Source: Halorientalis persicus
GTDB lineage: Archaea; Halobacteriota; Halobacteria; Halobacteriales; Haloarculaceae
Assembly (NCBI RefSeq): GCF_900110215.1
Contig: NZ_FOCX01000026.1
Coordinates: 1 to 42,047, forward strand
Reading direction: 5' to 3'
DNA length: 42,047 nucleotides
The stretch's first letter is position 1; the number at the start of each line of letters is the position of its first letter. Positions 3,143 to 39,710 of the stretch are shown here, in pieces. Under the pieces are notes generated by a model. It saw nothing but the letters and a program-made list of their open reading frames with translations. It did not search any database and had not been told where the DNA came from. Both the position numbers and the translations under genes were made by a program.

Positions 3143-3150
3143 GCGAAAAA
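3143..3150 (-). promoter_or_regulatory. GTTTYTCGC-type promoter element
   Basis: TTTTTCGC (preceded by GT on the coding strand) before the left operon. The T-tract is centred about 16 nt from ATG 3132, the shortest spacing in the set, so either the start is further in or this copy is atypical. Confidence 0.45.
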
Positions 3151-3196
3151 ACGCCGCTGTTCACTGGATCCGCACGAGAAAAATCGGCCTCTGATG

Positions 3197-3427
3197 CTAC
3201 TCGATGGTTTCCCAGCCGCTCTGCTTGAGTTCTTCCAGCTTTTCGAGCGGATATGATCTCTGCTCGGACTTTGGTTTGAGGTCGTCGGAGAGCAGAGAGA
3301 CGCCAGCAGGGGCGGTCCCCTCGCTGAATCTGACTCTTTCGTCTCCGATGTTGACGCTCATTTCGATCTCGTCTTCTACGAGGGCGATTCTGTCGCCGTC
3401 TTCGAATGGGAGTTGTTTGGCTTCCAT
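3197..3427 (-). CDS. Unknown acidic protein
   Basis: A protein of 76 residues beginning MEAKQLPFEDGDRIALV, mainly beta at the N-terminus with a C-terminal helix (PLEKLEELKQSGWE). No family recognised. ATG 3427 is chosen because the protein becomes globular there and GAGG lies upstream; ATG 3466 (89 residues) is possible. A promoter element at 3537-3544 is about 110 nt upstream, so this gene would have a leader unlike most others here. Confidence 0.6.
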   Translation of the reverse strand: MEAKQLPFEDGDRIALVEDEIEMSVNIGDERVRFSEGTAPAGVSLLSDDLKPKSEQRSYPLEKLEELKQSGWETIE

Positions 3428-3536
3428 GGTGTCTGGTTGCCTCGCTGCCGTTGTTGGGCAGGTCATTGGCAGGGGAATGCATCTTGTCTGTGGTGGTGAC
3501 CGGGGCGGTTCGTTTCCTCATCGCTGTCCTTTGGGG

Positions 3537-3544
3537 GCGAAAAA
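3537..3544 (-). promoter_or_regulatory. GTTTYTCGC-type promoter element
   Basis: TTTTTCGCC on the coding strand, 16-17 nt before an ATG at 3521 whose frame looks non-coding (Arg-rich, antisense-like). The first convincing gene downstream starts at 3427 or 3466, so either a leader is transcribed or a tiny leader peptide exists. Confidence 0.5.
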
Positions 3545-8271: not shown

Positions 8272-8736
8272 TTACTGCTTTGCAGGTCGTTTGATGATCT
8301 CGACGTGTTTTTTGAGGGCTGGCTGGTCGTCGTCGTCGCTGCTGTCGCGGATTTCGACTTGCGGGAGCATCTGGCCGTTTGGCCACGCGATGTCGATGTG
8401 GGCGTCGCACCGTTGCCCTCCGAGCGAGACGGTCACACCGCTGTCTGTGTCTGTGATTACTGTCCGATCTTCTGGTTCGAGATGGGGCTCTGGTTCGGAT
8501 TCTAGCGAGACGGTACTTCTCGTTAGAGTAGGTGCCCAGGCACCCGCCGGATAGACTCGGACTTGCAGTTCGGATTCCCATCCGGTGCGATAACCGATCA
8601 TGAGCTGCGGGACATCCGAACAGCCGATGAAGATCGCATCGACACCGTCGTCTTCTTCGATGCTGATTGTCGTTTTGACGGGCTGTTCAACGCTGTGTGT
8701 GGGCATTGGTTGACGTGAGTGGGGTGAGTGAGTCAC
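8272..8736 (-). CDS. Unknown beta-rich protein
   Basis: A protein of 154 residues from GTG 8736, which overlaps the upstream stop as GTGA; ATG 8706 (144 residues) is a good alternative. Beta-strands dominate (AIFIGCSDVPQLMIGYRT, ELQVRVYPAGAW). No family recognised. Second gene of the operon driven by the element at 9066. Confidence 0.62.
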   Translation of the reverse strand: MTHSPHSRQPMPTHSVEQPVKTTISIEEDDGVDAIFIGCSDVPQLMIGYRTGWESELQVRVYPAGAWAPTLTRSTVSLESEPEPHLEPEDRTVITDTDSGVTVSLGGQRCDAHIDIAWPNGQMLPQVEIRDSSDDDDQPALKKHVEIIKRPAKQ

Positions 8737-9047
8737 CGTCTGCCTTGCAGGTGGGCGAGAAAGGGATTCTCCGCGTTTGCTTCCAACAGGGACGTTGGAG
8801 TTGCGAGGGAGGGGTTCTCGTCAGTGACCGGGACTGTGCAGCTGTCGTGGATCTGCAACACACGAACGTCTTGCGTGTCCGGTTCTAGTGCGGCGATAGT
8901 GAGGTACTCCGTATCAGGCCGGCACCGGTCGATTTCTAGCAGGTACAGCACATCGCCGGTGTCTGGATCGCGAAAGTAGCCACCGTCGCCGATAGCGACG
9001 GGCGATTTCTCTTCCCAGTCTGGTTCTTTGTCGTCTGTTTCTGACAT
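8733..9047 (-). CDS. Unknown small protein, first gene of an operon
   Basis: A protein of 104 residues, beta-rich (GYFRDPDTGDVLYLLEI, TEYLTIAALEPDTQDVRVLQI). No family recognised. ATG 9047 has no SD but a GTTTYTCGC-type element whose T-tract is centred about 24 nt upstream, fitting a leaderless transcript. Downstream genes at 8736, 8255 and 7599 follow with small gaps or overlaps. Confidence 0.66.
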   Translation of the reverse strand: MSETDDKEPDWEEKSPVAIGDGGYFRDPDTGDVLYLLEIDRCRPDTEYLTIAALEPDTQDVRVLQIHDSCTVPVTDENPSLATPTSLLEANAENPFLAHLQGRR

Positions 9048-9065
9048 TGCTCACGCCCCTCGCAG

Positions 9066-9073
9066 GCGAAAAA
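9066..9073 (-). promoter_or_regulatory. GTTTYTCGC-type promoter element
   Basis: TTTTTCGCC on the coding strand; T-tract centred about 24 nt before ATG 9047. Confidence 0.7.
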
Positions 9074-9114: not shown

Positions 9115-9188
9115 AGCCAGGGCGGGGATTTGAACCCCGGAACTCCCGATTACAAATCGGGTGCTTGGACCGCCCAAGCTCCCCTGGC
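9115..9188 (-). tRNA. tRNA-Thr (anticodon UGU)
   Basis: The 74 nt fold into a complete cloverleaf: acceptor GCCAGGG/CCCTGGC, D stem GCTT/AAGC, anticodon stem CCCGA/TCGGG around loop TTTGTAA (anticodon TGT, reads ACA), variable region AGTTC, and T arm CGGGG-TTCAAAT-CCCCG. Discriminator base is T, as expected for archaeal tRNA-Thr. CCA is not encoded. It lies between the end of an unknown gene (9288) and the promoter element of the next operon, away from any other RNA gene. Presence among accessory genes suggests either a cargo tRNA or an old integration site. Confidence 0.95.
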
Positions 9189-10944: not shown

Positions 10945-11461
10945 GGATCGGTTCTAGTTTTTCTCGCAGGGAGTCTAGTCGTTCGACCTGTTCGCTGTAG
11001 CCGTTGCCGTCGATGCTGTCGAGAACGCCGTCGAGAACGGCGACGAACTCGCTGTAGTCCTGTTGCCACATCAGCTGTTGCTCATTGGTCGCGCAGGCAT
11101 CTTCGACAGTGCCGATGACTTCTTCGACAGCATCGTCCGGGATGCCTTCGTGGGCCCGCATGGCCAACTCGAACGATTCGACGATGTCTGGGAAGTTGAT
11201 GGGTTGCTCCGACTCGGTATCGTAGCCGGTGCTGGTGACCGATGCGCCGTCGAACTCGGCGATTTTCTCTCGGAATCTACTCTGGTCGTATTTATCGCCG
11301 ATGACCTCGATCCCGTAGCGGACAGCGGCCGCTTCGACAGGCACGTCGGTTTCGGACTTGACACTGGCCCCGCTAAATTCGGCGACCAGCTCCCGGAACG
11401 TGCCCTGTGTCGGCTGTTCGCCACGGACGATCACCGAGTAGGGGACGAGTCCGTCAGTCAT
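10937..11461 (-). CDS. Unknown protein with an internal duplication
   Basis: A protein of 174 residues. Residues about 8-38 and 48-78 are copies of one unit: YSVIVRGEQPTQGTFRELVA and YGIEVIGDKYDQSRFREKIA are each followed by EF.GASV. This suggests a tandem repeat of a small beta-alpha unit. The C-terminal half is helical. The start overlaps the upstream gene by 8 nt. No known family. Confidence 0.68.
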   Translation of the reverse strand: MTDGLVPYSVIVRGEQPTQGTFRELVAEFSGASVKSETDVPVEAAAVRYGIEVIGDKYDQSRFREKIAEFDGASVTSTGYDTESEQPINFPDIVESFELAMRAHEGIPDDAVEEVIGTVEDACATNEQQLMWQQDYSEFVAVLDGVLDSIDGNGYSEQVERLDSLREKLEPIHA

Positions 11462-11723
11462 CGGAGACAGCCTTGTTCCCCCAGTCGCTGAGGCCGGCCT
11501 GATCGGTGAGGACCTGCGTGGCTTCGAGAACCTTGTCGTTGCCCGTCTTCCGCAGGACCATTCCTTTGTACCGCTCTTCGCCGTGGGCCTCGGCCTTGCG
11601 TTCGAGGAAGTTCTTGGCCTCTTCTTCGGTGTCGAAGAAGGGATTGGCCATGTCCTCGCCGAACTTCGTGTGGGTGAGGACGCCGTTGCTGCCGCTCCAG
11701 TAGTACTGCTCTCTGTCAGTCAT
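11454..11723 (-). CDS. Small unknown protein, first gene of operon
   Basis: A protein of 89 residues (MTDREQYYWSGSNGVLTHTK...). It contains a strand-helix-strand unit with TEEEAKNFLERKAEAHG, recalling other tiny proteins in the window. ATG 11723 was chosen because the upstream extension is Arg/Pro-rich shadow of the next gene. The promoter element at 11750-11757 is centred about 32 nt upstream. Confidence 0.66.
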   Translation of the reverse strand: MTDREQYYWSGSNGVLTHTKFGEDMANPFFDTEEEAKNFLERKAEAHGEERYKGMVLRKTGNDKVLEATQVLTDQAGLSDWGNKAVSDD

Positions 11724-11749
11724 TGCTGAACACTCCACTCCCCCTGATG

Positions 11750-11757
11750 GCGAAAAA
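11750..11757 (-). promoter_or_regulatory. GTTTYTCGC-type promoter element
   Basis: TTTTTCGCC on the coding strand; T-tract centred about 32 nt before ATG 11723, leaving a short leader. Confidence 0.65.
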
Positions 11758-11778: not shown

Positions 11779-13020
11779 TCACTGATTCGGGAGCGTCGTC
11801 TGTGTTGTCCTAGATTCCGACGCGGCCGGTTGGCCGGCCGATGCGCTTGTTTGCTCTGCTTTTGGTCCGGTCGGGAGCGACCGGGAGGAGGTTGCAGGAT
11901 GAGTGCCGATTGCTCGCTCTCGGCGGTCGCGTACCGCGTCCCAGTGGGAGAGTGCGGCCGTCCGACAGTGCCGACAGCCTCTCGTCCGTGGATCGGGACT
12001 GGGCGCCCCCGGATCGATCTGCCGCCCGCAGACACACTCGAGGAGCTGGTAGTCGGCGGCTGCTCTGTCTCGGTTGTTTGCTCCCCAGTCGGCAAGACTG
12101 GTCACGGAGACGTTCGAGCCGGCCCGATCTGTGCTGTCGTGGGGCCGATCCAGCAGGTTGGTGAGGCGATTTCGGTAGTCTAGGTATGTGATGAGGTAGT
12201 TCTCCCACGAGCATCGTGGGAATCCGGGCTTGCGATATGCCAGCCACTCGTCGCGCCACTCTGGCCCGTCGTGAGCGGTTGTCGTCGCGTCGGTGTAGAG
12301 GTTCTGCTCCCAAGCGTTGGAATCGACAGAATCCAGTGCGTTTCGGACGGCTGGTGATTCGAGAACGGACTGCTTGACTCCAAACCCGTGGAGCGAAACA
12401 CGCTCGGGGAGCGCTTCCCGTACTCGGAGGATAGTGTTCTTGATCTCGGCATCTTGGCCGCGGCGACAGACGGATCCAAGCCCGACGTAGTCGGTGATGA
12501 GCCCGTAGTCGGCTAACTCGTCAATGTGTTCGAGGTAGTCACGGATGTCGTAGCCTTGGACGACGGCCATGGGCTCAGCATCAATATCGCGCGTCTCGTA
12601 GGCTTCTAACTGCAGGATGTGGTCCCGCGTGGTCCACTCCTGGTGTGTGCTGACTGTCCGACCATATTCGGACAAAAGTGATGGCTCGCACGCCCAGTCT
12701 CGGAGCGCAAACCGACTGATGCAGTCGTCGTGTTCGGCGACGAAATCAAGATGCTCGGTCACCGTGCTGTCGTAGGATCCGGTCTGGGAGAGGGTCGAGT
12801 AGCCGCCCGAATCGAGAATCCACTCCGGTCCAGGCCACGGCTCGTTCATTTTGGATGCGAACGATACCATCAGGTGTTCTGGCTCTGGAAACCGACTGGC
12901 GTCAAGCTCGCTGTTGACGATCACGGACTCGGTGGTATCTGCCTGCGAAAGAGCCCGGAGCGCTTTTCGTTGCGATCCTGACGAAACTGTCCAGTAAAAG
13001 TCGAGTGTGTCGCTGTGCAT
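11779..13020 (-). CDS. TGT/DpdA-like nucleic-acid guanine transglycosylase
   Basis: A protein of 413 residues. Residues 60-240 show the tRNA-guanine transglycosylase (TGT) barrel in the form seen in DpdA proteins: WILDSGGYS with Asp70, VQGY at 154-157, GLGSVCRR at 180-187, HGFGVK at 211-216, and SVDSNAW with Asp233, the expected second catalytic Asp. DpdA enzymes swap guanine in DNA for preQ0. Near the C-terminus a CVC...CRHC cluster could bind zinc; the last 60 residues are low complexity. It is distant from the archaeosine tRNA enzyme (no PUA domain, different motifs). It is transcribed alone from an element at 13041. The TGT fold is clear; DNA as substrate is inferred from similarity to DpdA, and tRNA cannot be excluded. 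Confidence 0.82.
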   Translation of the reverse strand: MHSDTLDFYWTVSSGSQRKALRALSQADTTESVIVNSELDASRFPEPEHLMVSFASKMNEPWPGPEWILDSGGYSTLSQTGSYDSTVTEHLDFVAEHDDCISRFALRDWACEPSLLSEYGRTVSTHQEWTTRDHILQLEAYETRDIDAEPMAVVQGYDIRDYLEHIDELADYGLITDYVGLGSVCRRGQDAEIKNTILRVREALPERVSLHGFGVKQSVLESPAVRNALDSVDSNAWEQNLYTDATTTAHDGPEWRDEWLAYRKPGFPRCSWENYLITYLDYRNRLTNLLDRPHDSTDRAGSNVSVTSLADWGANNRDRAAADYQLLECVCGRQIDPGAPSPDPRTRGCRHCRTAALSHWDAVRDRRERAIGTHPATSSRSLPTGPKAEQTSASAGQPAASESRTTQTTLPNQ

Positions 13021-13040
13021 TGTCGCTGGGCATCTCGCGG

Positions 13041-13048
13041 GCGAAAAA
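13041..13048 (-). promoter_or_regulatory. GTTTYTCGC-type promoter element
   Basis: TTTTTCGCC on the coding strand; T-tract centred about 26 nt before ATG 13020. Confidence 0.7.
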
Positions 13049-13362: not shown

Positions 13363-14274
13363 TCAGATTGACGCTTCCCAGCGGCGCTTGGTCCAGTTTT
13401 CGTCGACGCTCGTTTCCCCGCTGTCCAGTGAAAGCGTCTTGGTGTGTTCGAAACCTGCACCGGCGTAGCAGATACCTCGGTTTCCGTCGACGCCTGCGAG
13501 CGCGATGAGCCGACTAATCTCGGTATTGTGGCGGAGCCAGCCTCGGATTCGACCGAGCATCCAACTGGACGTGTTCGGTGGCCGATTTGGATGGTTTGCG
13601 AGCCGAGTGAGATATCGTGTCTGATTGTAGTCGGCGATCTCGCGATTGTGTCCATGCTCGAGAACAGCGACGGAAATGAGATGCCCGTCATAGACGGCCC
13701 CGAAGGCGTGGCGGAAGCCGTCGACGCCGAGTAGTCGGTGATCGACGCGGCCGTCTGGCCCGCCCGCGAGGAACTGGTTAACCGTGCGGAGTGCCCCCTC
13801 GCCTTCGAGATGGTGGAAATCGAGGGCCTTGGCGGCTGGTGCGGTTGGCACGTTGGTCCGCGGTGGTTCCCAGCGCGAGAATATCCAATCCGGCTCGTCG
13901 CCACACTCGGCTGCGGATCGCGGGAAGTCCGGCATTTCCGGTGGTGGACTGGTTCGCCACTCGTGGCCGGGCCCGTGCAAGTCTTTGATCATGGACTCGG
14001 TTTCTGGGAGGCGATGCTCGAAGCGAATGGTGGTGTTGGAGCCGTCGTATGCGACCGTGTCGACGACGTGCCGTCGGTATTCCGCGCGGACCTCGCGGAG
14101 GCAACTCGTCGTCTGGCCGGTCTCCAGCTGTCGCTTGCGAGTGTCTGTGACCGTCCGGTGAAAGAGATGGTCGCCAGGAGCGATTGATGACGGTGGATGA
14201 GAGACCGTCACCTCGTCTTCTGTTCCAGCATCGATGGCTGTGAGAGCGCTTACGCATCCGTATCGGAATGCCAT
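13363..14274 (-). CDS. Mom-like GNAT-fold protein
   Basis: A protein of 303 residues. The first 150 include an ASCH/PUA-like portion (VSHPPSSIAPGDHLFHRTVT). Residues about 180-285 read as a GNAT domain of the phage Mu Mom type: FGAVYDGHLISVAV, YLTRLANHP, SWMLGRIRGWL, ICYAGAGFEHT. Mom modifies adenine in phage DNA and protects it from restriction; several phages and archaeal viruses encode relatives. ATG 14274 is fixed by a GTTTCTCGC element centred 23 nt upstream; the longer open frame to 14400 includes that promoter. Its location next to TGT-like genes supports a DNA-modification role. A general GNAT acetyltransferase acting on another substrate remains possible. Confidence 0.7.
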   Translation of the reverse strand: MAFRYGCVSALTAIDAGTEDEVTVSHPPSSIAPGDHLFHRTVTDTRKRQLETGQTTSCLREVRAEYRRHVVDTVAYDGSNTTIRFEHRLPETESMIKDLHGPGHEWRTSPPPEMPDFPRSAAECGDEPDWIFSRWEPPRTNVPTAPAAKALDFHHLEGEGALRTVNQFLAGGPDGRVDHRLLGVDGFRHAFGAVYDGHLISVAVLEHGHNREIADYNQTRYLTRLANHPNRPPNTSSWMLGRIRGWLRHNTEISRLIALAGVDGNRGICYAGAGFEHTKTLSLDSGETSVDENWTKRRWEASI

Positions 14275-14291
14275 GGTCTGTTCTCCAGCCA

Positions 14292-27658: not shown

Positions 27659-27677
27659 ATGCTTCACGTTCTAGGTG

Positions 27678-27962: not shown

Positions 27963-27978
27963 TGCACTCCTGCTGCTG

Positions 27979-28455: not shown

Positions 28456-28986
28456 TCATCTAGTGGTTGTGTGGAAAGGCGGGAGGGATTCGTTGGCGTC
28501 GATTGTTTTTCGAAGCCAGCCCATCTGGTCGCCAATCCCGTCGAAATCGTGTTCCTCAAACGGGTAGACTGTCCGATATTCTGAAAGCACGGATCGGACT
28601 TGCTCTGGCAGGTAGTGCGACGTAGCGAGAACGACGATGGTGCCGACAGGCTCGCGTTCGTGGAGTTGCGTCGCCAGTTCCACGCAGACCTGATCAGCCC
28701 ACTCAGCGACCGCTTCATCCCCGATGTAGCTGTCGTCCTGGGGCCGGAGTGAGGCATCATACGTCGTGAGCGGCTCGTTCGGCTCAACGACGCCATGTTC
28801 TCCGGAGAGGATCAGCTGATCGTCGCACAATTCTTCTGAGAATTCCTGCTTGAGGGAGGCATACGACGAGTTGTAGAGGTCCTTCGCTGGGACTGTTTCA
28901 CCGTCGTCAAGATCCTGCTTGCTACTGCCACAGGCGATGAGGGCGATGTCGGTCGTGCCACGAGTGGTGTGGAGGGCGTTTGCCAT
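28456..28986 (-). CDS. DUF6884-like protein
   Basis: A protein of 176 residues. IALIACGSSKQDL near the N-terminus, PAKDLYNSSYASLKQ, and LILSGEHGVVEPNEPLTTYD are the typical blocks of a family annotated as DUF6884, frequent in phages and plasmids and without a proven reaction. The conserved Cys/Lys and His residues suggest an enzyme. ATG 28986 has a promoter element centred 29 nt upstream; the phosphatase gene follows after 7 nt. Given the TGT-like genes in the window, action on a nucleoside or base is possible but not shown. Confidence 0.7.
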   Translation of the reverse strand: MANALHTTRGTTDIALIACGSSKQDLDDGETVPAKDLYNSSYASLKQEFSEELCDDQLILSGEHGVVEPNEPLTTYDASLRPQDDSYIGDEAVAEWADQVCVELATQLHEREPVGTIVVLATSHYLPEQVRSVLSEYRTVYPFEEHDFDGIGDQMGWLRKTIDANESLPPFHTTTR

Positions 28987-29009
28987 GGGAATACTCTGCT
29001 CTCTCGGTT

Positions 29010-29017
29010 GCGAGAAA
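29010..29017 (-). promoter_or_regulatory. GTTTYTCGC-type promoter element
   Basis: GTTTCTCGC on the coding strand; T-tract centred about 29 nt before ATG 28986. Confidence 0.68.
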
Positions 29018-29046: not shown

Positions 29047-30369
29047 CTAGAGGTTGCTCTGGACGTCGAGTTCGTTCATCGCGTCGACGTCTTGGCTGAT
29101 CTCTTGGATTTTCGCGGTTTGCTGTTCGTTGGCGGCTGCAATTGCTTCGGCTTCGCTGGCCACATCTTCGAAGTCTTCGGCCGTTTCGTCGATCATGCTA
29201 GCGATTTCTTCGGTGCTTGCGGCTTGGTCGTCGGTCGCGTCTGCGACTTCGGCGACGCCGTCTGAGACTGCTTCAACTACTTTGGAGATGTCTTTGAATG
29301 TTTCCCCGGAATTCCGGACTTTCTCAGCGCCGTCCTGGACCACCCTGTTGGTTTCTTCGAGACTGGAAACCGTGTCGGTGGTGCTTTCACGGACGTGTGC
29401 GACGATTTCTTCGATTTCGGAGGCTCGTTGTTGGGACTCTTCGGCGAGTGATTTGACTTCGTCGGCAACGACGGCGAACCCGTCGCCGGCTTCGCCAGCA
29501 CGGGCGGCTTCGATGGAGGCATTCAGTGCCAGCAGGTTTGTCTGGTCGGCGATGTCGTTGATCACGTCGACGAGTTCGTTGATCTCTTGAATCCGGTCGT
29601 TGAGTTCTCGAACGTCGTCTGTTGCTTCGGCAGCGGCGTCCTCGATACCGGCCATGATCTCGATGGTCTCCTCAGCGTCTTCTTTCCCGGCTTCGGCCTT
29701 TTCTCGAGCCTGCTCGCTCGTTGTTTTGACCTCGTCTGCTGTGGCCGCGATTTCTTCGACTGTTGCACTCAGTGATGCGACTTCTTTCGAGACGTTCGTG
29801 ATCGAGTCCAGTTGCCTGTTGGCCTGCTGGCTAATCTCCTGTGAGTTGTCAGCGACTTCTTCAGACGACGCTTTGAGTTCGTCAACGGCGGATTTGATGC
29901 TTTGGCTTGCGGCTTTCTGATCGGAGATATCGCGGAATGTCTCGCTGATGGCAACAATATCGCCTTCCGGGTCGTGAATGGGCCGGACAACCAATTCCGT
30001 AGGGATGACCCGCCCGTCGTAGCTTTCTTTCTCGACTTCGACGCGGATTTCGTCCTTGCCTTCGTCGACGATCTGTTTGAGAGTGCAGTTGCCAGTCCCG
30101 CAGACTTCCGGATTGCAGAACTGGTCGTAGCATTTCACGGTCGCGCTATTTTCTGCGTCGACGCCGCCGAGTTGCTTCATTTGCTCGTTTTCCACAACGA
30201 CGTTGAAATCCAGATCGAGAATCCGCATCGCGGCGCCGGTCGACTCCATTACCTGCTTGAGATTGTTGGTTAGTACATCCCAGAGTTCGTCTTCTGGGAG
30301 TTCTTTGCCAGCGAAAATCTGTTGAGAGAAGTCTTCTCCTGCTGTTGAACCGTCTTCAGTGGTGGCCAT
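29047..30369 (-). CDS. Cytoplasmic PAS-containing chemotaxis transducer
   Basis: A protein of 440 residues without membrane segments. Residues about 35-150 form a PAS domain with four evenly spaced Cys (80, 85, 90, 95) that could bind a metal or sense redox state. The rest is a long coiled coil with the conserved MCP signalling tip (ADQTNLLALNASIEAARAGE...GFAVVADEVKSLAEES), which contacts CheA and CheW. Haloarchaea have several soluble transducers of this kind. It would feed a cytoplasmic signal to the host archaellum. No che gene is nearby. A weak CTCTCGCC stands 53 nt before the ATG; I do not count it as a promoter element. Confidence 0.92.
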   Translation of the reverse strand: MATTEDGSTAGEDFSQQIFAGKELPEDELWDVLTNNLKQVMESTGAAMRILDLDFNVVVENEQMKQLGGVDAENSATVKCYDQFCNPEVCGTGNCTLKQIVDEGKDEIRVEVEKESYDGRVIPTELVVRPIHDPEGDIVAISETFRDISDQKAASQSIKSAVDELKASSEEVADNSQEISQQANRQLDSITNVSKEVASLSATVEEIAATADEVKTTSEQAREKAEAGKEDAEETIEIMAGIEDAAAEATDDVRELNDRIQEINELVDVINDIADQTNLLALNASIEAARAGEAGDGFAVVADEVKSLAEESQQRASEIEEIVAHVRESTTDTVSSLEETNRVVQDGAEKVRNSGETFKDISKVVEAVSDGVAEVADATDDQAASTEEIASMIDETAEDFEDVASEAEAIAAANEQQTAKIQEISQDVDAMNELDVQSNL

Positions 30370-30499: not shown

Positions 30500-32002
30500 T
30501 CACGGGGTGTCTCTTGATGAGCGCGCTGGCTCAAACGAGTCTGGTGTCGCCGCTCCTCGTGGACCAGAAAAGCGTCTGTCGTCCGTTTCCCACGCTGAAA
30601 CGCGTCGCCGAGCCGTTCCGGTGAGTGGCTTGGAGTGGAGCGATTCGGCTAGTTCCACCAACCGCTCGTACGTGCGCTGGCAGGATTGCCGAGCGGGGAG
30701 TGCAACCGGATCTTCGTCAACGTAGGCGCAGTCTGTCTCTCCGCCCCACCGAGTCTCGCTTGGGACGTGGATCTCGTACTGGATCGTGTACTCGTCTTGG
30801 CCGACAGGCCCGCTAAGAACCAACCGACGCGTGTACCGCTCGTTGATACTCTGCTCGTAGGTGACTCGAAGTGTTCCCGGCTGTCCGTCGTCCTGAACGA
30901 CGCGTGGCTCCTTTGCGAGAGTCCACTCCTCTGGCGGTTGATGCAGGCACTCGTGGTGCCCGGGATGGGACCAGAGTTCGGGATCGTGTGTTTTCATCCA
31001 GTCGATGGCGACCGACCGCGCTTCTGCATCGCTGTACTCGGCTTGGACTTTCCCCGGGAGCGAGTCGGGTGGGAAGCGACCACGGACGCCGCCGAGTCTG
31101 TCGTCGCCGACCTCAACCCATGAAAAATCCGTGTGATGGTGGAGGATTTTGACGTATGCGTGCCCGTCGGACTGTTCCCATCGTTCGTGGCCGGTGAGTC
31201 GTGTCGGCGTATACTCCCAGCCGTTGACTTCCGAGGGCACGTTCTGGCAGTACTCGAAGTCCGAGTCGAATGGAGTTCCGTCTGGATCGGAAAGCAGTGT
31301 CGCAGTCTCGGCGCTGTCGATGCCGGGCCACTCGAGGTGGCTTGGCGGTGTATGCTCGTCGGCTCGCCGAACGTTCAGCTGGTAGCGCGGGACGGCGGTT
31401 GGTGCAGGTACCCCCTCCGTGTGTGTCATCGGCCAGTCGCCTTGCAGGATTCGGACGACGCCGCTGGTCTGCCAGTTGTCTTGGATCGCCCAGGCGTAGT
31501 TGCTGGCGTCGTGGAGGACAACGTTGTATCCTGAACCACTTGCCTGTGGTTGGATCCAGACGGCCCGTGTCCACTCCCACGGATTTGATCCACGGTCTTC
31601 TCGATCTGGTTCCGACAGCGCAACGTGCAGAATCGAACTTTTCTCCTCAGCATCTTTCGCCGCTAGCTTCGACACCCACTGCTCGTACTCTGTTTGGTGC
31701 TCATACCAGTGTGAGCTATCGAACTGGCCGCCGCTTGTGATACCGAACTGGCTCAAGCCGCTTCCGAGCAATTCACTCGTCGTGAGGGCACTGCTGTAGT
31801 CTGGATGGCAATCGATTGCGATTTGCTCTTCGTCCGGACTGGAACCGGTCTCCGTGAACTCGGTGAGACGATCTTGCAGTGTTTCAACGGCCTCACTGTG
31901 CGAGTCGACATGGAACCACTCGCCGTTGAGAGACGTGTGACAGAGTGCCCACGCATCATCGAGATACGGCGGTCGAATGTCGATCTGCAATTGGTCAGAC
32001 AT
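30500..32002 (-). CDS. Large unknown protein
   Basis: A protein of 500 residues. No domain recognised. It is rich in Trp, His and beta-type segments (HAYVKILHHHTDFSWVEVG, TRRLVLSGPVGQDEYTIQYE) and has a basic, Ser/Arg-rich tail. Start ATG 32002 overlaps the zinc-ribbon gene upstream by 8 nt, so both belong to one unit under the element at 32227. Confidence 0.7.
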   Translation of the reverse strand: MSDQLQIDIRPPYLDDAWALCHTSLNGEWFHVDSHSEAVETLQDRLTEFTETGSSPDEEQIAIDCHPDYSSALTTSELLGSGLSQFGITSGGQFDSSHWYEHQTEYEQWVSKLAAKDAEEKSSILHVALSEPDREDRGSNPWEWTRAVWIQPQASGSGYNVVLHDASNYAWAIQDNWQTSGVVRILQGDWPMTHTEGVPAPTAVPRYQLNVRRADEHTPPSHLEWPGIDSAETATLLSDPDGTPFDSDFEYCQNVPSEVNGWEYTPTRLTGHERWEQSDGHAYVKILHHHTDFSWVEVGDDRLGGVRGRFPPDSLPGKVQAEYSDAEARSVAIDWMKTHDPELWSHPGHHECLHQPPEEWTLAKEPRVVQDDGQPGTLRVTYEQSINERYTRRLVLSGPVGQDEYTIQYEIHVPSETRWGGETDCAYVDEDPVALPARQSCQRTYERLVELAESLHSKPLTGTARRRVSAWETDDRRFSGPRGAATPDSFEPARSSRDTP

Positions 32003-32207
32003 TCTCGGAGTTCTCGCTGTCGGATGCCGGGCGGTATCGGCACTGCTCGCAGACGAGGTGCCACTCGCCAGTGCGCTTCACGTCGATGAGGTGGGCCGCT
32101 TCGCATCGTGGGCAGACGTCGCCGTGGCTGTAGTCTCCGGGCCGTTCTTTCGGTTCAGGCGGTGAGTGCTGCCGTGGTCGGAGGGATCCGAACTGGAACA
32201 GGAGCAT
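31995..32207 (-). CDS. 70-residue zinc-ribbon protein
   Basis: C32-x2-C35 and C53-x2-C56 (CPRCEAAH...CEQCRY) form a single zinc ribbon. N-terminus is basic and Pro-rich. It is coupled to the 500-residue protein by an 8-nt overlap. Promoter element centred 25 nt before ATG 32207. Function unknown. Confidence 0.7.
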   Translation of the reverse strand: MLLFQFGSLRPRQHSPPEPKERPGDYSHGDVCPRCEAAHLIDVKRTGEWHLVCEQCRYRPASDSENSENV

Positions 32208-32226
32208 CGCTCTGTCTCGGTAGGGG

Positions 32227-32234
32227 GCGACAAA
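32227..32234 (-). promoter_or_regulatory. GTTTYTCGC-type promoter element (variant)
   Basis: GTTTGTCGCC on the coding strand, with G in place of the usual pyrimidine; T-tract centred about 25 nt before ATG 32207. Confidence 0.6.
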
Positions 32235-32249: not shown

Positions 32250-35200
32250 CTAGATGCCCGTCAGTAGCGACGCGAGGGTGTCGAGCTTCTCGGTCAGGTT
32301 CTCTTTGTTGAAGACGGTTCGAGAGGCTGTCCACTTGCCTTCCAACTCTGCTGCTCCGGGGGGCGCACGATTTCGGGCGCTGGTCGTGGCGAGTGTGAGC
32401 GAACAGACGGGGGGTTCGCCGAGTTGCTCTGCGACGGCGCCGGGACTGGCAGGCTGGCCGTCGGTCATGGTGATGATGAGCGGCTCCTGTTGCTGGCGGC
32501 GAACGAGCGCTTTCGCCAACTCAAGAGCGTCCGAAAGCGGTGTCCCACCGCCGGTCTCGGTCGTGAGCAGTGCGTCTTGGACATACTCAACATCGACGCT
32601 GAACGGCTTGATGAGGCGGGCTTCGTCTCGATAGAAGTCGATGACGGCGACGTTGATGCCGAGGTCTTCGGCTGCGGCGGCGAACGTCGCGACCGCCTGG
32701 ACAGCTGGCTCGATCTCGTTGCTCCGGTACCCGCCCATCGATCCAGAGCGGTCTAGTACCAACACGAGCGCGTATTCTTTCTCGTCGCCGGGCGTTTTCC
32801 GCTCGAAGGCACGCGGATCACCGTAGGAGAGCTTGTAACCCTGTGCGGGATCGACTCGCCCGCTGGTTTGACCGGGGATGACGTCGCTCTGCTTGTCCAT
32901 CGCGAGGACGTTCGCCAGCGTGTCGGCTACCTGTTCGGATTCGGCTTCGATGGTAGCCCACGTCTGCTGGTCAGCGACGCTGTTCTGTGTTGTTGGCTCA
33001 GTCTGGCCCGTTTCTGGCGTCGTGATCGAAGTGAGCGAGCCACTGCCCGCGCCCTGACCGCCTGGCGATTGCTCCCCAGTGGGATCGTCGTCAGTGTCTT
33101 CCAGCAGGTCGTTGATCTGGTCTAGCTCGTTGTTGACGGCGTCTGTGTTGGGTGTCGTCTGGTCGATTTCTTCGCGAGCTTTCTCTGCATCGGACTCGAG
33201 GGCGTCCGCGTCAATCTCAGGATCGATTGAGGGCGCACTTGGTTCGGAACGACTGCCGTTCTGCCCGTCGGAGTCAGACTGACTGGTTTCCTCGCCTTCG
33301 CTTGGAGTGGCGTCGGTGTCATCTGCTTCTGAGTCGTCGGGCTGATCCGGCTCGCCATCAGTATCCGATTCAGAATTCGTGTCAGCGTTTTCACTTTGCA
33401 CGTGGGGTGTCTCGTCGTCACCGGACTCACCATCTGCATCTTCGCTTGGACTTCCGGCGTCGGCTTCAGAACCGTCTGTCTCGTCGCTACGCTCGTCGCT
33501 GTCAGCGTCGATGCTATTGTCCCCACTCTGCTCCTCTTCTTCGCCGGAGCGGCTTATGTCGCTGTCCGCGTCGTTCTCGTCGTTTTGCCCCAATGCGAAG
33601 TCGCCCAGTGCAGACTGGCCGCTACTGATTCCTGAGCTCCCATCGCTTGACCCGGGGTTTATATTGGGTCGGGTATCGCCGCTGGAACCACTGCTTGCCG
33701 CTGGGTCTTCCGAAGCGGGTCCGTCTTCGGCGCTGGCTGTGGTACCGCTAGCGTCTTCGCTGTCGTCTTGGCTCTCGCCCTGCGTCTGTTCGCTTCCATG
33801 ATCTCCGGCACTATCGTCACTGGTGTCTGCTTCGGGAGATGTGTTCTCTTGGTTTGCTTCGGTGTCTCCGCTTGTTTCCGGTTCGTCGGCTCCCGGTTGG
33901 TCGTCTGCACCACTCCTCGCTTCCTGAGAGTCGGTTGCCTGCGATTCGTCTGTGTTTTCGTCGGCTTGCTCGGGGTCCGACGTGGACGGCTGGTTGGGCT
34001 CGGTGTCGACGTCGTCCGGCTCGGGCTCTTGTGGGTCGATGTCGGGATGGTCGGTGATCGACTGAAGCGGCGTCTCGTCGGTTTCCTGCCGCTCGGTCGT
34101 GACTGCTTCTGGGTCAGGTTGGCCGGCGGGCTGATCAGGACCTGCTTTGCTGTCTGATTGGTCGGTGTTGTCCTCGCTGTCCGGTTGGGCGCTGTTTTGC
34201 TGTCCTTGCTGCTCCTGTTGCTCCTGCGGTCCCTGCTGGCTCTGTTGCTCCTGTTGGGCTTGCTGGTCTTTATCGTGACTGTCCTGATTGTCTGCGTCGG
34301 TACTCTGAGCCTCTTCACCTGACTCTTGTGGCGAATCCGGTGAAGACTCGTTCCTGTCTTCGCTCTCGAAGAACGGCGCCATGTGGGCCGTCCAGAACTC
34401 AGTGAGTCGGCGAGCGCGCTGAATGGAGGCTTCCTTGCCGTAGAGTCGGATACTGTCTTGCTGTTCGTTCCGAAGACCGTGGAGATCGGCGGCGAGTTGC
34501 TTGAGCGGCTCGTGGATCGAGAGGAAGGCGTCTTCGTCTGCGTCGGAGGCGAAGGTGATTCGGTCGTCGTCGGGGTCGGCGAGAACGGGGCCGACGCCAG
34601 TGTAGGTTTCGGACCCCGGGAAAATCGCGTAGTCGTATAGCGCGCCCGTGACCGCATCCCAGAAGGAGAATTCGGCCCCATGTTCGACGTCGGAGAGCGG
34701 CTGGCTGACGATTCGGCGAATGAGCGTCAACTGCGTCGTTGCTTGGTCGGTGAAGGCATCGGCCCGGCGGGCTTCGGCCTCGATGACGCCGTCTTCGCCG
34801 ATATTCAGTAGCTCGTGGGCTTTCTCGCGCTGGGCCTCGCTGTCGATCTCTTGCTCGATGATCTCGGTCTGGCCGCTAACGTTCGTGAGCAGGAGGTGCA
34901 GCAGTTCGTGGAGGACGATGCCGTGTTGGTAGGCACGATCGACAGTGGCTTGGTCGGAAATCGGGAGCGACGACGTATCGGCTGGCTGGCCGGTAACGGC
35001 GATCAGGTAGTCGCCGTCGATGCTGTCGGCGAGGTGGGCAGCGGCGTCGGCGTCAAGGCCGGCGTCGCTCGTGAGTGCGTCCGCTGTCGCGGGCATGATG
35101 AAGCCTGTATCGACACTCGGCAGGACGCGCAGGTCGACACGTGCCTCGAGATGAGGCGGCAGGAGTCCGGTAACAGTGTCCGCAAGCCGTTGCTCGCGAA

Positions 35201-35261
35201 CACTGCTGGTCCGGACGTGTGCGGCTTCGTCGGGTGTGAAAGTGTCTGGTGCAAGTGACAT
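32250..35261 (-). CDS. Metallopeptidase-like protein with C-terminal vWA domain (CobT-like)
   Basis: A protein of 1003 residues. Residues 118-122 are HELLH, a zinc metallopeptidase motif, followed by NIGEDGVIEAEARR, which matches the downstream acidic ligand region of vWA-associated putative peptidases. Residues about 300-760 are extremely acidic, Gln/Ser/Asp/Glu-rich low-complexity sequence. Residues about 829-1003 form a vWA domain with MIDAS motif DRSGSMG, a GGGTPLSDAL loop and MTDGQP. This order resembles CobT-type partners of MoxR/CobS ATPases, and such an ATPase is encoded at 35964. The pair could remodel or load metal into a protein complex. A promoter element is centred 44 nt before ATG 35261. 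Confidence 0.85.
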   Translation of the reverse strand: MSLAPDTFTPDEAAHVRTSSVREQRLADTVTGLLPPHLEARVDLRVLPSVDTGFIMPATADALTSDAGLDADAAAHLADSIDGDYLIAVTGQPADTSSLPISDQATVDRAYQHGIVLHELLHLLLTNVSGQTEIIEQEIDSEAQREKAHELLNIGEDGVIEAEARRADAFTDQATTQLTLIRRIVSQPLSDVEHGAEFSFWDAVTGALYDYAIFPGSETYTGVGPVLADPDDDRITFASDADEDAFLSIHEPLKQLAADLHGLRNEQQDSIRLYGKEASIQRARRLTEFWTAHMAPFFESEDRNESSPDSPQESGEEAQSTDADNQDSHDKDQQAQQEQQSQQGPQEQQEQQGQQNSAQPDSEDNTDQSDSKAGPDQPAGQPDPEAVTTERQETDETPLQSITDHPDIDPQEPEPDDVDTEPNQPSTSDPEQADENTDESQATDSQEARSGADDQPGADEPETSGDTEANQENTSPEADTSDDSAGDHGSEQTQGESQDDSEDASGTTASAEDGPASEDPAASSGSSGDTRPNINPGSSDGSSGISSGQSALGDFALGQNDENDADSDISRSGEEEEQSGDNSIDADSDERSDETDGSEADAGSPSEDADGESGDDETPHVQSENADTNSESDTDGEPDQPDDSEADDTDATPSEGEETSQSDSDGQNGSRSEPSAPSIDPEIDADALESDAEKAREEIDQTTPNTDAVNNELDQINDLLEDTDDDPTGEQSPGGQGAGSGSLTSITTPETGQTEPTTQNSVADQQTWATIEAESEQVADTLANVLAMDKQSDVIPGQTSGRVDPAQGYKLSYGDPRAFERKTPGDEKEYALVLVLDRSGSMGGYRSNEIEPAVQAVATFAAAAEDLGINVAVIDFYRDEARLIKPFSVDVEYVQDALLTTETGGGTPLSDALELAKALVRRQQQEPLIITMTDGQPASPGAVAEQLGEPPVCSLTLATTSARNRAPPGAAELEGKWTASRTVFNKENLTEKLDTLASLLTGI

Positions 35262-35299
35262 GGCTCTGGGCGAGTGGATCTGGCTCGGCTACTCCGCCA

Positions 35300-35307
35300 G
35301 CGAAAAA
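35300..35307 (-). promoter_or_regulatory. GTTTYTCGC-type promoter element
   Basis: GTTTTTCGC on the coding strand; T-tract centred about 44 nt before ATG 35261, implying a leader of roughly 18 nt. Confidence 0.6.
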
Positions 35308-35352: not shown

Positions 35353-35441
35353 CTAGTGCCGCTTCAGGCGTGAATCGCTAGATTCACAGGACACAACGCC
35401 TCTTGATTAATTCTAGCAGTTCAGAACTGAAGCAGCACTAG
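35353..35441. repeat. 89-bp MITE-like inverted-repeat element
   Basis: Ends are 15-bp inverted repeats with one mismatch: CTAGTGCCGCTTCAG (35353-35367) and CTGAAGCAGCACTAG (35427-35441). Inside is a perfect hairpin GTGAATC-GCTA-GATTCAC. The interior is AT-rich. It resembles a miniature transposable element. Its right repeat contains the stop codon of the gene at 35438-35635, so insertion may have changed that gene's end. Confidence 0.6.
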
Positions 35442-35635
35442 GCCGGAAGTACTTCGGAATGGGATTCGATGCTGACCGGATCAATGAGCCCGATCCCATC
35501 GCCGGTGAGGGAGATGATCTGGTTCTCCACTTCGGTCACGAGGACGTTGTCGCGGCCGTATTCTGTCGCAAGTTCGTTGTGGACGGCTTCGATCTCGGCT
35601 TCTTGCTTGGAGTTCTCGGGGATGATGAAGGTCAT
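35438..35635 (-). CDS. 65-residue unknown protein
   Basis: A small acidic protein with one helix (ENSKQEAEIEAVHNELATEYG) and strands NVLVTEVENQIISLTGDG. No family recognised. ATG 35635 has a promoter element centred 23 nt upstream. Its TAG stop lies in the inverted repeat of the MITE-like element, so the original protein may have been longer. Confidence 0.64.
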   Translation of the reverse strand: MTFIIPENSKQEAEIEAVHNELATEYGRDNVLVTEVENQIISLTGDGIGLIDPVSIESHSEVLPA

Positions 35636-35652
35636 GCTTCACTGCCCTGGAA

Positions 35653-35660
35653 GCGAGAAA
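35653..35660 (-). promoter_or_regulatory. GTTTYTCGC-type promoter element
   Basis: GTTTCTCGC on the coding strand; T-tract centred about 23 nt before ATG 35635. Confidence 0.7.
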
Positions 35661-35963: not shown

Positions 35964-37979
35964 TCAGTCAACGATATTTCGGAGCGTCTGGTGTGCGGCG
36001 TCGGGATTCTGGTTCGGTTCTGCCACGGCCCAGAGGACGTTTTTCATCGCCGCCCGGGGACTCGCCCCGTCATCGATGTGTTCGCAGACGGTCATCAGCG
36101 ATCGGGTCGAGACCGTCGGCCAGGACTCGTTTTCCCGCGTCTTGTGAGCCATCTCGACGAGTTGGCGGAGCGTCTCCCGTGAGGCCGTCTGCCAGTTCCG
36201 GTTGGCCTGTCGAGCGACTGCTTCGGTTTCCGTTTTGACATCCTGGGGATACTGATGCTGGAAGCGACGGAACCGTTCCCGCGTCGCCGAGTTCATCGGC
36301 TCGGAATCGCGGTACTCACGCGTCGGCGGGTTCATCGTCACGATGATCCGCGCTTGTGGATGTGGCTCGACCAGCTGGCCGTGGCTCTTGATCAGGAGCT
36401 TTCCTTCGTTGAGGAGGCGGTGCATCGCCATCGCTGCACCTGCCCGCATCGTGGGGAACTCGTTGATGACCAGCCACTCCCCGTTCAGGAGTGCTTGCTT
36501 GACGGGACCGCTTCGCGGTTCGATCACTCCGTTTTCATCGGGCGTCAGCGGCCCGAATAGGTCGTCCGGCGTGGTGGTCCGGTCGGCGTCGATGGAGCGG
36601 TAGCCATTGTTCGTCTTGTAGGCGAGATACTTGATGAGATAGTTCTTCCCGGCACCGCGCGGGCCTTCGATACAGACGGGAACCAGCCCACGCGCCAGTT
36701 TGTTCGCGATGAGGACGTCCATCTGGACCTGGAGACGCGGCTCGACCGGGACGGCAGGCGGGATGACTTCGCCGTCCGCGACCGGGAGGGCATCGTCACC
36801 GGCGTCGGGATGGGTTTCGGGCTTGGGGATCGACGGGTGGTCGTCGGTAGCGTTGACCGGCAGCCCAGTCTGTTCGGGGTCGTCAGCGTGCTGGCCGATC
36901 TCCGAGTAGTAGACGCTGTCGGCGTCGGTGATGTCACACTCTGCGATAGCTTGATACCGCGGATCGGGCACGTCGGCGTCCACGCTGTCCACGTCGACGA
37001 CGCGAGCGGTCCCACTCCCAGCCTCGTTCGTCCGTGACTCGTACCGTTGCTTGTGTTGCTTGATGAGGCGAGGGGCAGTCGGGATCGCGGACGTGGCTTC
37101 GGCGATGATCGCGCTCGTCTGTTCGGCGTCCACGTCGGTCACGAACGCTTCGGCAGCAGTCGAAATCTGGTCGGCATCCTCGAGATCGACACAGAACGCT
37201 TTCTCGGCGGCTTCTTCCTTGATGACTTCGGCACGGGCTTCGTTGATGGTCGCGCCGGCTTCGGCTAGTTCTTCGATCGGCGCGTCGGCGATTTTGCGGA
37301 ACGACTCCAGGCATTCTTCTTGGAGCCGGTCACGCTGAGTGTTCGAGACGCTGTCCAGATTCGTCAGCGGGCTTGGGGGGAGATACTGCGAGATATGATC
37401 GTCGGCGGCGTCTGCGAGGTCCTGAGTGTCCGTGAATGCCAGATCGCGGTAGGTCGAGAAGCCGGCGTGCGTGAGCGCGTCCAGTATCGCATCGACGTTC
37501 TCGAGTTCTGCCTGCCACTGGGCCGGAATTTCGTCTTGGAGAGCCTCGTAGTCGATGGGATCGGCCCGTTCTTCGAGTTCTTGCTCGATCTCTTTCTGGA
37601 GGGCTTCTGGATCGGCTTCGGAAAGGTCCTCGAACGAACTGTAGCCGAGTCCCTGCAGGACTGATGCGATGTCTTCGGTGACGCCGTTGAGGTCGGCGAA
37701 GTCAGCTGTCTCGAAGTGGGCGGCGACTGCATCGGGTTCGTCCCCGACAGGATCGACGCTTGTGATGACTTTCCCGTTGTCGTCCGAGCGAGAGATGCCG
37801 TACACGTCGCCGGCTCGCTCGTTGACTAGCTGCTCGATGTCGGCGTCGATGCCGAACTCGTCGGCGGCGGTCATCGCGAGCGTTTCGAGCGGGACCGACC
37901 CGCCTTCGGCGGCGAGAAGGCGATTGGCGAGGTGGCTCAGCGTCTCCTGCTCGGCAGTCTGGTGGTGTTGTGTACTCAT
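35964..37979 (-). CDS. MoxR/CobS-like AAA+ ATPase with unusual Walker A
   Basis: A protein of 671 residues. The N-terminal 300 are helical with helix-hairpin-helix-like patterns (VTEDIASVLQGLGYSSFEDL; DAILDALTHAGFSTYRDLA). The ATPase domain (about 430-650) has Walker A GPRGAGKN at 439-446 with Asn where Ser/Thr normally binds magnesium, a Walker B-like WLVINE with Asn-Glu, sensor-1 Asn550 (TMNPP) and a likely Arg finger (ATRERFRRF). The overall pattern fits MoxR/CobS/CbbQ AAA+ proteins, which work with vWA proteins such as that at 32250. ATG 37979 has an AGGAGA SD, 28 nt after the upstream stop. The altered nucleotide site may lower or change activity. Confidence 0.85.
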   Translation of the reverse strand: MSTQHHQTAEQETLSHLANRLLAAEGGSVPLETLAMTAADEFGIDADIEQLVNERAGDVYGISRSDDNGKVITSVDPVGDEPDAVAAHFETADFADLNGVTEDIASVLQGLGYSSFEDLSEADPEALQKEIEQELEERADPIDYEALQDEIPAQWQAELENVDAILDALTHAGFSTYRDLAFTDTQDLADAADDHISQYLPPSPLTNLDSVSNTQRDRLQEECLESFRKIADAPIEELAEAGATINEARAEVIKEEAAEKAFCVDLEDADQISTAAEAFVTDVDAEQTSAIIAEATSAIPTAPRLIKQHKQRYESRTNEAGSGTARVVDVDSVDADVPDPRYQAIAECDITDADSVYYSEIGQHADDPEQTGLPVNATDDHPSIPKPETHPDAGDDALPVADGEVIPPAVPVEPRLQVQMDVLIANKLARGLVPVCIEGPRGAGKNYLIKYLAYKTNNGYRSIDADRTTTPDDLFGPLTPDENGVIEPRSGPVKQALLNGEWLVINEFPTMRAGAAMAMHRLLNEGKLLIKSHGQLVEPHPQARIIVTMNPPTREYRDSEPMNSATRERFRRFQHQYPQDVKTETEAVARQANRNWQTASRETLRQLVEMAHKTRENESWPTVSTRSLMTVCEHIDDGASPRAAMKNVLWAVAEPNQNPDAAHQTLRNIVD

Positions 37980-38007
37980 GATTTCTCCTGTGGGGGCAGT
38001 GGGCCGC

Positions 38008-39663
38008 TCAGTCGTCGGCGGTCGTCATGTCGGCCGTGGGCGCGTCTGTGTCCCCCGCCTCGCGAGAAACGTCGTCGGTATCATCGCCCCCATCCGCATC
38101 ACTGTCGGCGGTCTCGGCATCGCCGTCGTCGCCGTCACTGGCTTCCGCGTCTTCGATGTCGTCTTCGGAGACGAACGCGTCGATCTGGCGATCCACGGTT
38201 TCTTGGACCTGTTGGGCTTGGCCGGCCGCGATGTCGCTCAGGTCGAAGCCCTCCATGTCGTCGAAGTCTTCCAGGTCGTCCAGCGTGTCGCCCAGCGTCT
38301 GCTGGCTGTCGGGAAGGATCTCGGCATCGTCCTCCTCGTCGTCACTGTCGGCATCGCGCTGGTAGGCTTTGATCGCGACGCGGAGTTGCTGTTTGGGCTG
38401 GCGAACGAGTTTCCCGGCGACTTCGGCGAGTTCTTGGAAGCGACTGCTGCCACGCTCGCCGCCGTAGGCTTTCAGCAGTGCGATCTTGAGTGAAATCTGG
38501 AGGTTCCACAGGGTCGGCTGGCCGCTCGGGTTCGCCAGTGCCGTCGCCCGGTCGGCCGCCTGCTCGGCGATTGACCCGGAGAAGCCCAGATACTCGTAGA
38601 AGTCCGTCACGGAGAACGGCAGCGTGTTGAACTTGAGCGTGAGCATCCGCGCCCGGGCCAGGTCGCTACTGAGTTGCGTGGCGAAGCTGTCCAGCTCTTC
38701 GAGAATCTCGCTGTGCCACTCGGTCGGGGGCGTCCGGTTGGCGCTGCGCTCGTGGGACTCACTCATGAACTCCCCGACGTGCTTTCGGGAGAAGCGAGCG
38801 TCTTTCCCGGGCACGGGCATGGTTGTGTCGACAGCGGGAATGTAGACGACCGGCCGGGCCCAGATGGTGGACGACCCGCGGTAGTCGTAGCCGATCTGGG
38901 AGCCGTAGTAGACAGTGATTTCGCCGCCGTCGTCGGCGGCAGTCATCTGCCCGGCTTGGTCCTCGCCGACAGTCCCGAACTGGTCGATGAGGGCGTCACC
39001 GTCGCCGGGGAGGACGCTTCCCTCGTCGTCGACTTCGACGGTGTACTGCTTGTCGGGGAAGACGGTCGTGATCCGGCCTTCGCCGCCCCAGTCGTGGTAG
39101 TGGATCCAGCCGAACGGCGACGGATCGTCTGCACCTTCTTTCTGTGCGGCGACGACGAGCCGTTCGAGGAACGCCTGCATGTCGCCGGCCTCGTAGGAGG
39201 TCGTGGCGATCTGCCATCGGAAGCGGCAGTTGAATCCGAGCGTTCGGAGGGCGAGACGGCGACGGTCGATGATGTCTTTGTGGTCGGCAACCGGGATGTG
39301 CCGGCTGGCGTTTGCGGTGCTGGTGATGTCGTCGAGGTCGTGGCCGGCGGCCTGCTCGAGTTGTTCGACGTCCAGCCCGTCGACGTTGCGGATAGCCTCT
39401 TGATCGATGGTCGCCTCGGCGTCGTCAGCGACGAATTCGTTGACGGCCAGCAGGTCGCCGTTGCCCGGCACGGGGAGGACCTGAATGGCGTCTTTGAAAC
39501 ACTGGCTGGTATCGAAGCGGTCGCCACTGGCTGTGACGGCGTCAGGATACTCGCCCGAGCGGGTCAGGCCACAGAAGCCGACAGTGCCGTTGGGGCTGAT
39601 CAGCGACTCGACCGATGCACTGAACGCGATCTCGCTTTCGGATGGAGTTTGGTTCGTTGTCAT
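38008..39663 (-). CDS. Large unknown protein upstream of the AAA+ ATPase
   Basis: A protein of 551 residues. An N-terminal region (SVESLISPNGTVGFCGLTR), a middle with FRWQIATTSYEAGDM and ITVYYGSQIGYDYRG, a helical region (about 330-440) and a very acidic tail of about 120 residues are visible. I recognise no family. Start ATG 39663 has AGGTGAT just upstream; GTG 39672 and ATG 39669 are alternatives. It leads an operon with the AAA+ gene, and likely acts with it and the vWA protein. Confidence 0.72.
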   Translation of the reverse strand: MTTNQTPSESEIAFSASVESLISPNGTVGFCGLTRSGEYPDAVTASGDRFDTSQCFKDAIQVLPVPGNGDLLAVNEFVADDAEATIDQEAIRNVDGLDVEQLEQAAGHDLDDITSTANASRHIPVADHKDIIDRRRLALRTLGFNCRFRWQIATTSYEAGDMQAFLERLVVAAQKEGADDPSPFGWIHYHDWGGEGRITTVFPDKQYTVEVDDEGSVLPGDGDALIDQFGTVGEDQAGQMTAADDGGEITVYYGSQIGYDYRGSSTIWARPVVYIPAVDTTMPVPGKDARFSRKHVGEFMSESHERSANRTPPTEWHSEILEELDSFATQLSSDLARARMLTLKFNTLPFSVTDFYEYLGFSGSIAEQAADRATALANPSGQPTLWNLQISLKIALLKAYGGERGSSRFQELAEVAGKLVRQPKQQLRVAIKAYQRDADSDDEEDDAEILPDSQQTLGDTLDDLEDFDDMEGFDLSDIAAGQAQQVQETVDRQIDAFVSEDDIEDAEASDGDDGDAETADSDADGGDDTDDVSREAGDTDAPTADMTTADD

Positions 39664-39702
39664 GCTCATCACCTGGAAGTGAACAGGCTACCTCCACTGC
39701 GG

Positions 39703-39710
39703 GCGAGAAA
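39703..39710 (-). promoter_or_regulatory. GTTTYTCGC-type promoter element
   Basis: TTTCTCGCCC on the coding strand; T-tract centred about 45 nt before ATG 39663, leaving room for the SD of that gene. Confidence 0.6.

Follow-up and report, generated by a model that had tools for sequence, protein, structure and literature searches.

Phage-encoded sigma factors such as T4 gp55 redirect the host polymerase to element promoters. Halobacterium sp. NRC-1 has several TFB genes, some of them on large plasmids (pNRC200), for which roles at different promoter classes have been proposed, and bop is known as a promoter without BRE conservation (PMC2121645). In the SIRV1 and SIRV2 promoters the TATA box is followed by a GTC element (PMC5569661), and HF2 contains intergenic repeats that have been shown to act as promoters and have a TATA box near −26 (PMC8707807).

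The stretch of DNA analysed here (the window) is the entire contig C33 (42,047 bp) of a 4.87-Mb haloarchaeal genome in 121 contigs. It contains many copies of a motif with the consensus TTTYTCGCYNNCRR, which, judged from its sequence and position, is probably a core promoter that is specific to this element and sits in the TATA slot. The whole statement, that this core promoter is read by the element's own TFB together with the host TBP and polymerase, is the one that we favour by a narrow judgement. The likeness to T4 gp55 is one of logic, that of an element-encoded initiation factor; the machinery is non-homologous and belongs here to the archaeal TFIIB family. With the multiple TFB/TBP system of Halobacterium NRC-1 the window shares a plasmid TFB gene and a BRE-less promoter, but the NRC-1 factors act genome-wide and the sections of that report used here define no TFB-specific core promoter sequence, whereas in the window an own TFB stands beside a private promoter (PMC2121645). 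The SIRV promoters are similar in that promoters of a mobile element share an extra conserved block just 3′ of the TATA position; yet SIRV keeps a clear TATA box and BRE and is thought to use the host TFB, while here BRE and TTTWWW are absent and a TFB is encoded (PMC5569661). HF2 is likewise a haloarchaeal mobile element with intergenic repeats, but these are longer, differ in sequence and have a recognisable TATA box and BRE, unlike the window motif (PMC8707807). HF2-type repeats were rejected as a candidate, their cores CTTTAAGT and CCCTTTAC being absent from the window. An element-encoded TFB and a private BRE-less core promoter are combined in none of the Halobacterium TFB, SIRV and HF2 precedents.

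Why haloarchaea keep many TFBs, and whether TFBs define promoter classes, has been a question since the Halobacterium proposal (PMC2121645). The window offers a compact natural system with a named TFB, a sharp promoter sequence and about 18–20 target sites in 42 kb. In sister plasmids the factor seems to have changed in step with the promoter, which makes the question of TFB promoter classes directly testable, and orthogonal archaeal expression tools could come from such a TFB-promoter system.

A motif concentrated upstream of the window genes

The window genes lie almost all on the minus strand. We counted 25 copies of TTTYTCGC in the window, where 100 shuffles gave a mean of 3.96 and a maximum of 10. 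The coding strand carries 21 of the 25, of which 16 have an ATG 10–32 nt downstream and stand shortly 5′ of called starts (start codons were called by a home-made gene finder). An earlier note on this DNA had described the element as GTTTYTCGC(C) and proposed a motif search. An unseeded, MEME-like ZOOPS search of the 60-nt upstream regions and an unbiased enumeration of words each put the motif first. The former returned TTTyTCGCy..Crr with 18 sites and a log-likelihood gain of 140, above all other sets, and the latter ranked TTT.TCGC first among all spaced 7-mers, with 17 of its 30 copies standing before a start (log10 p −16.3). A wider matrix reads T-T-T-Y-T-C-G-C-Y-N-N-C followed by purines, with C12 nearly invariant and weak preferences in the bases upstream of the motif. 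The motif described in the earlier note is thus real, but its fixed part is TTTYTCGCYNNC plus purines; the leading G and the 10-mer are loose, G being present at 10 of the 18 sites listed earlier and the strict GTTTYTCGCC occurring only five times. All 18 of those sites stand, 17 as exact minus-strand TTTYTCGC and the one at 32227 as the one-base variant TTTGTCGC; missing from the list were 17678 (TTTGTCGC, 23 nt before 17662) and a weaker site at 25198 (TTTGACGC, 27 nt before 25178).

The sites, all on the minus strand, are distributed along the window. Near its beginning, TTTTTCGCCCCC (3533–3544) lies 23 nt before the ATG at 3521 of ORF 3129–3521, and TTTTTCGCTACT (3139–3150), which is weaker and without C12, 19 nt before the ATG of a short ORF. 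Three versions are found twice: TTTTTCGCCTGC at 9062–9073 (26 nt before gene 8733–9047) and 22057–22068 (28 nt before gene 21600–22040), TTTCTCGCTCCC at 19209–19220 (26 or 38 nt before gene 18802–19182/19194) and 20277–20288 (33 nt before the TFB gene), and TTTCTCGCCAGC at 24294–24305 (26 nt before gene 24016–24279) and 27975–27986 (24 nt before gene 27774–27962). Single versions precede gene 11454–11723 by 34 nt (TTTTTCGCCATC, 11746–11757), a DpdA-like gene at 11779–13020 by 28 nt (TTTTTCGCCCGC, 13037–13048), gene 13363–14274 by 25 nt (TTTCTCGCTGGC, 14288–14299), gene 22112–22672 by 29 nt (TTTCTCGCCTCC, 22690–22701), gene 27044–27658 by 27 nt (TTTCTCGCCACC, 27674–27685), gene 28456–28986 by 31 nt (TTTCTCGCAACC, 29006–29017) and gene 35438–35635 by 25 nt (TTTCTCGCTTCC, 35649–35660). 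The variant TTTGTCGCTCAC (17674–17685) stands 23 nt before gene 16895–17662, the weak variant TTTGACGCCCTC (25194–25205) 27 nt before gene 24321–25178, and the variant TTTGTCGCCCCC (32223–32234) 27 nt before the ATG at 32207 of ORF 31995–32207. Longer distances separate TTTTTCGCTGGC (35296–35307) from the VWA gene (46 nt) and TTTCTCGCCCGC (39699–39710) from the gene for the 551-aa family marker (47 nt).

Enrichment of the motif is largely restricted to the window element and related elements. Comparisons with the chromosome rested on nine chromosomal stretches and on whole-genome pattern counts. The pattern TTTYTCGCYNNCR-N6-22-ATG is found 38 times genome-wide, against once for a reversed control; 18 of the 38 fall in the 114 kb of contigs C33, C34, C49, C54 and C66, and the remaining 4.76 Mb contain 20, so that the densities differ 37-fold. 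The earlier note had named equal density elsewhere as an outcome that would count against it; the fuller pattern with ATG occurs 10 times in the 42 kb of the window and 20 times in the 4.76 Mb beyond the five candidate contigs, is about 57-fold denser in the window, and so withstands this test.

The T-tract occupies the position of the host TATA box

We determined the distance from the first T of the motif to the called start for 18 upstream sites as 23, 24, 25, 25, 26, 26, 27, 28, 28, 29, 30, 31, 33, 34, 38, 46, 47 and 56 nt. These values agree with the spacing reported earlier. The first T lies 23–38 nt before the start codon at 15 of the 18 sites, with a median of −28, and the 38-nt case (19213) becomes 26 nt with an upstream ATG; the 23–34-nt spread is wider than a strictly fixed TATA-start spacing would give. 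A matrix built from the host chromosome shows BRE (CSRWRS) from −37 and TTWT at −29 to −26 relative to the start codon, the usual leaderless arrangement. With its first T at a median of −28, the T-tract of the window motif thus occupies the TATA slot, and in many motif genes the best host-promoter scores fall on the T-tract. Among the non-motif genes of the window, host-promoter scores showed no excess over shuffles.

At the same time, the sites share only part of the canonical haloarchaeal promoter: a T-rich box stands about 26 nt ahead of the start, while TTTWWW and BRE are absent. Of 68 TTTWWW boxes in the window and C34, C54, C49 and C66, none lay upstream of genes, whereas 21 of the 53 boxes in the chromosome sample did (Fisher p 2e-9), and no BRE exceeded the threshold at any of the 19 window sites, vs. 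z +5.1 for chromosomal TATA sites. Upstream of the T-tract, the window showed no TATA-like signal. Because the TATA slot is shared with the host, the enrichment is largely confined to this and related elements and no canonical TTTWWW lies upstream of the element's genes, the proposal of a TATA-like core of a distinct regulon, made in the earlier note, is the reading that we favour, and as a TATA-slot promoter the motif is well supported; what had been overlooked are the element's TFB, the plasmid family, whose lineages have their own versions of the motif, and the other motif-bearing contigs of this genome. The T-tract would stand in for the TATA box, with transcription predicted to begin about 26 nt further on, at or just before the start codon, and, as there is no upstream BRE, the conserved CGC..C directly 3′ of the T-tract would be read instead.

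The window belongs to a family of haloarchaeal plasmids

GC content is 0.58 in the window vs. 0.65–0.69 in the sampled chromosomal stretches. The marker of the family, a 551/554-aa protein (38008–39663/39672, minus strand), has relatives on at least 34 haloarchaeal plasmids of roughly 90–560 kb, whose hosts include Halorarius, Haloplanus, Haloarcula, Salinigranum and Natrinema. In annotated kin its neighbourhood comprises RPA-like genes, TFB, PCNA, DUF6166, the 554-aa protein, a MoxR ATPase and a VWA protein. The window carries four of the family's core genes, those for TFB, the 551-aa protein, the MoxR-type AAA ATPase (35964–37979, minus strand) and the VWA-domain protein (32250–35261, minus strand). 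An RPA pair is on C34 and PCNA on C49, and each is kept in most kin. By these shared genes the window belongs to the haloarchaeal TFB/PCNA/RPA/MoxR/VWA plasmid family as a piece: the family is characterised by a single circular replicon of about 90–200 kb, and the window is one 42-kb contig for which no joins with C34, C49, C54 or C66 were seen. We infer that C33, C34 and C49, and probably C54 and C66, are parts of one replicon. A complete second set of core genes lies on C67 (160,887 bp) of the same genome, which would make this contig a co-resident cousin plasmid. A tailed-virus origin was rejected: a DNA search of phage records was empty, scans of viral contigs gave no relative, and matches to phage proteins were weak and those to plasmids strong.

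The element-encoded TFB

The TFB gene (19266–20255, minus strand) encodes a 329-aa TFIIB homolog with a zinc ribbon and two cyclin repeats. The product matches PF00382 over two stretches (80.4 bits), retains the N-terminal zinc ribbon CPDC...CCEEC in the alignment and aligns with the archaeal TFB chains 1d3u and 1ais. It is a divergent paralog by sequence comparison: identity does not exceed 39% for any of the TFBs listed in 145 related genomes, a scan of genome contigs gave no close relative, and the score against the NCBIfam TFIIB subfamily (139 bits) is below the cut-off of 384. Its recognition helix reads STTGRGIL, vs. EVTIRNRY in a host chromosomal TFB and EVTVRNRY in 1ais; we take this to be the BRE-contacting helix from the positions of TFIIB V283 and R286. 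The protein also matches the viral family PHROG phrog_20431 ("unknown function") at 143 bits, and some archaeal viruses probably encode TFBs.

The most likely reader of the altered promoter would be this TFB acting with the host TBP and host RNA polymerase, a pairing suggested by the changed helix. The same motif lies before the TFB gene itself, through which the factor could drive its own gene in a possible autoregulation. If the motif is bound by the element's own TFB, the element would have an element-wide regulon partly uncoupled from the host TFBs. Four TBP genes are present in the host genome, on contigs C26, C29, C62 and C70; those of C26 and C29 are on low-GC contigs, and the C29 TBP is divergent.

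Helix type and motif version in kin plasmids

TTTNTC was also the highest-ranking upstream word in kin plasmids, where its fourth base differs between lineages: five plasmids have TTTGTC.C (26/76, log10 p −22.6), two have TTTCTC.C and two TTTATC(G). The motif also precedes several of the kin TFB genes. Its fourth base goes with the type of TFB helix, PTT[IL]R occurring with TTTGTC in 7/7 replicons, SAMTLREQW/SEVSLQHVW with TTTATC in 3/3 and SVVTIRNRY with TTTYTC (C/T) in 2/2, while the window helix goes with C/T. The replicons of Haloplanus rubicundus, Salinigranum rubrum and G034:C2, obtained after the rule had been formed, fit it. This association amounts to about four independent lineages only, because TFB type and motif are co-inherited; many motif sites across the kin are orthologous copies, and a pooled chi-square is not an independent-sample p-value. 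For five other TFB-bearing family members (C67, C41, G072:C49, Halarchaeum and G096:C2) no clear dedicated motif emerged.

As a tentative extension, which may well not hold, the plasmid family could contain orthogonal TFB-promoter pairs, in which the TFB helix of each lineage diverged jointly with its core promoter (TTTYTCGC, TTTGTCGC or TTTATCG). Plasmids that share a cell, C33 and C67 among them, would then run separate transcription programmes with one polymerase.

Additional symmetric sequences accompany the motif in some kin. On G071:C5 and G022:C2 (L072–L078, L096–L100) a conserved inverted repeat, TCCTACGCAACA ... TGTTGCGTAGGA, lies about 16–60 nt upstream of several TTTGTCGC (TTTGTC) sites and is a probable operator. 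On HarCBA and G021:C1 (L041, L102), short palindromes such as ACCCCGAAAGGGGT and TCTCTAAAGAGA immediately follow TTTATC on its 3′ side; their sequence varies and the symmetry is retained.

Alternative readings of the motif

A core promoter in the TATA slot might instead be read by the host TBP and one of the host TFBs, with CGC..C as the site of another element-encoded regulator. This accounts for the positional evidence no less well, about a dozen further TFB genes are present in the host genome in addition to its four TBP genes, and the TTTTTCGC version of the motif agrees with the host box TTWT.YSS. Also in its favour are other members of the plasmid family, whose TFBs come without a special motif, and the GTC element of SIRV, for which a regulator of this kind has been proposed (PMC5569661). 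Yet host TATA sites have a BRE and motif sites have none, and the helix of the element TFB is altered, with helix type tracking the version of the motif, so that we consider a host TFB unlikely as the reader, though a serious candidate. The motif could otherwise be an operator of a repressor or activator that overlaps otherwise ordinary promoters. Some sites are near-palindromic, e.g. TTTTTCGCCTGCGAAA at 22061, and separate dyads lie beside the motif in related plasmids, but upstream of element genes there is no ordinary TTTWWW to overlap, and the pairing symmetry across sites, on which a dyad operator was rejected, is not significant; we regard an operator as very unlikely.

The motif could also act in RNA, as a 5′ leader element in which a hairpin of the pyrimidine tract and the purine run would enclose the ribosome-binding site, and the promoter would lie further upstream. 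Many sites are foldable, CCCC..GGGG arms are common in related plasmids, some sites of related plasmids have a TATA-like sequence near T−33, and in the SVVTIRNRY lineage a strong Shine-Dalgarno sequence stands 16–24 nt after the first T at short-spaced sites. Such a sequence would lie upstream of a T+27 start and is the main observation at odds with the TATA reading in that lineage. However, shuffling each alignment column among sites did not alter the folding energy in the window (z −0.6), in its sister contigs or in the main kin group, and gave a weakly positive result only in this same lineage (z about −2), no TATA-like signal precedes the T-tract in the window, and the Shine-Dalgarno strength of the window motif genes is about that of shuffled sequence. 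A leader element is therefore improbable in general, and for the window a hairpin or riboswitch-like leader was rejected on the column-permutation folding test, with no Rfam match at the motif. A Shine-Dalgarno origin of the purine run was rejected, the signal being weak in the window and strong in one kin lineage only, as was a terminator of the upstream gene, since the preceding stop lies anywhere between −30 and 314 nt away, while the distances to the start cluster at 23–34. We retain a TATA-slot core promoter, with the element TFB as its preferred reader.

Other genes of the window

Possible DNA-modification genes lie at 11779–13020, 13363–14274, 16032–16898 and 22732–24012, the first two of which are preceded by the motif. 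The candidates include a DpdA-like transglycosylase (PF23859), a weak Mom-like protein, a second TGT-like protein (PF01702) and a PAPS-reductase-like protein. A tRNA-Thr (TGT) is located at 9115–9188 on the minus strand, about 42 nt upstream of the 9066 motif, and a plasmid-borne signalling protein with PAS and methyl-accepting chemotaxis parts is encoded at 29047–30369 (minus strand). Among the very few plus-strand genes, that at 40017–40835 matches the archaeal flagellin family PF01917.
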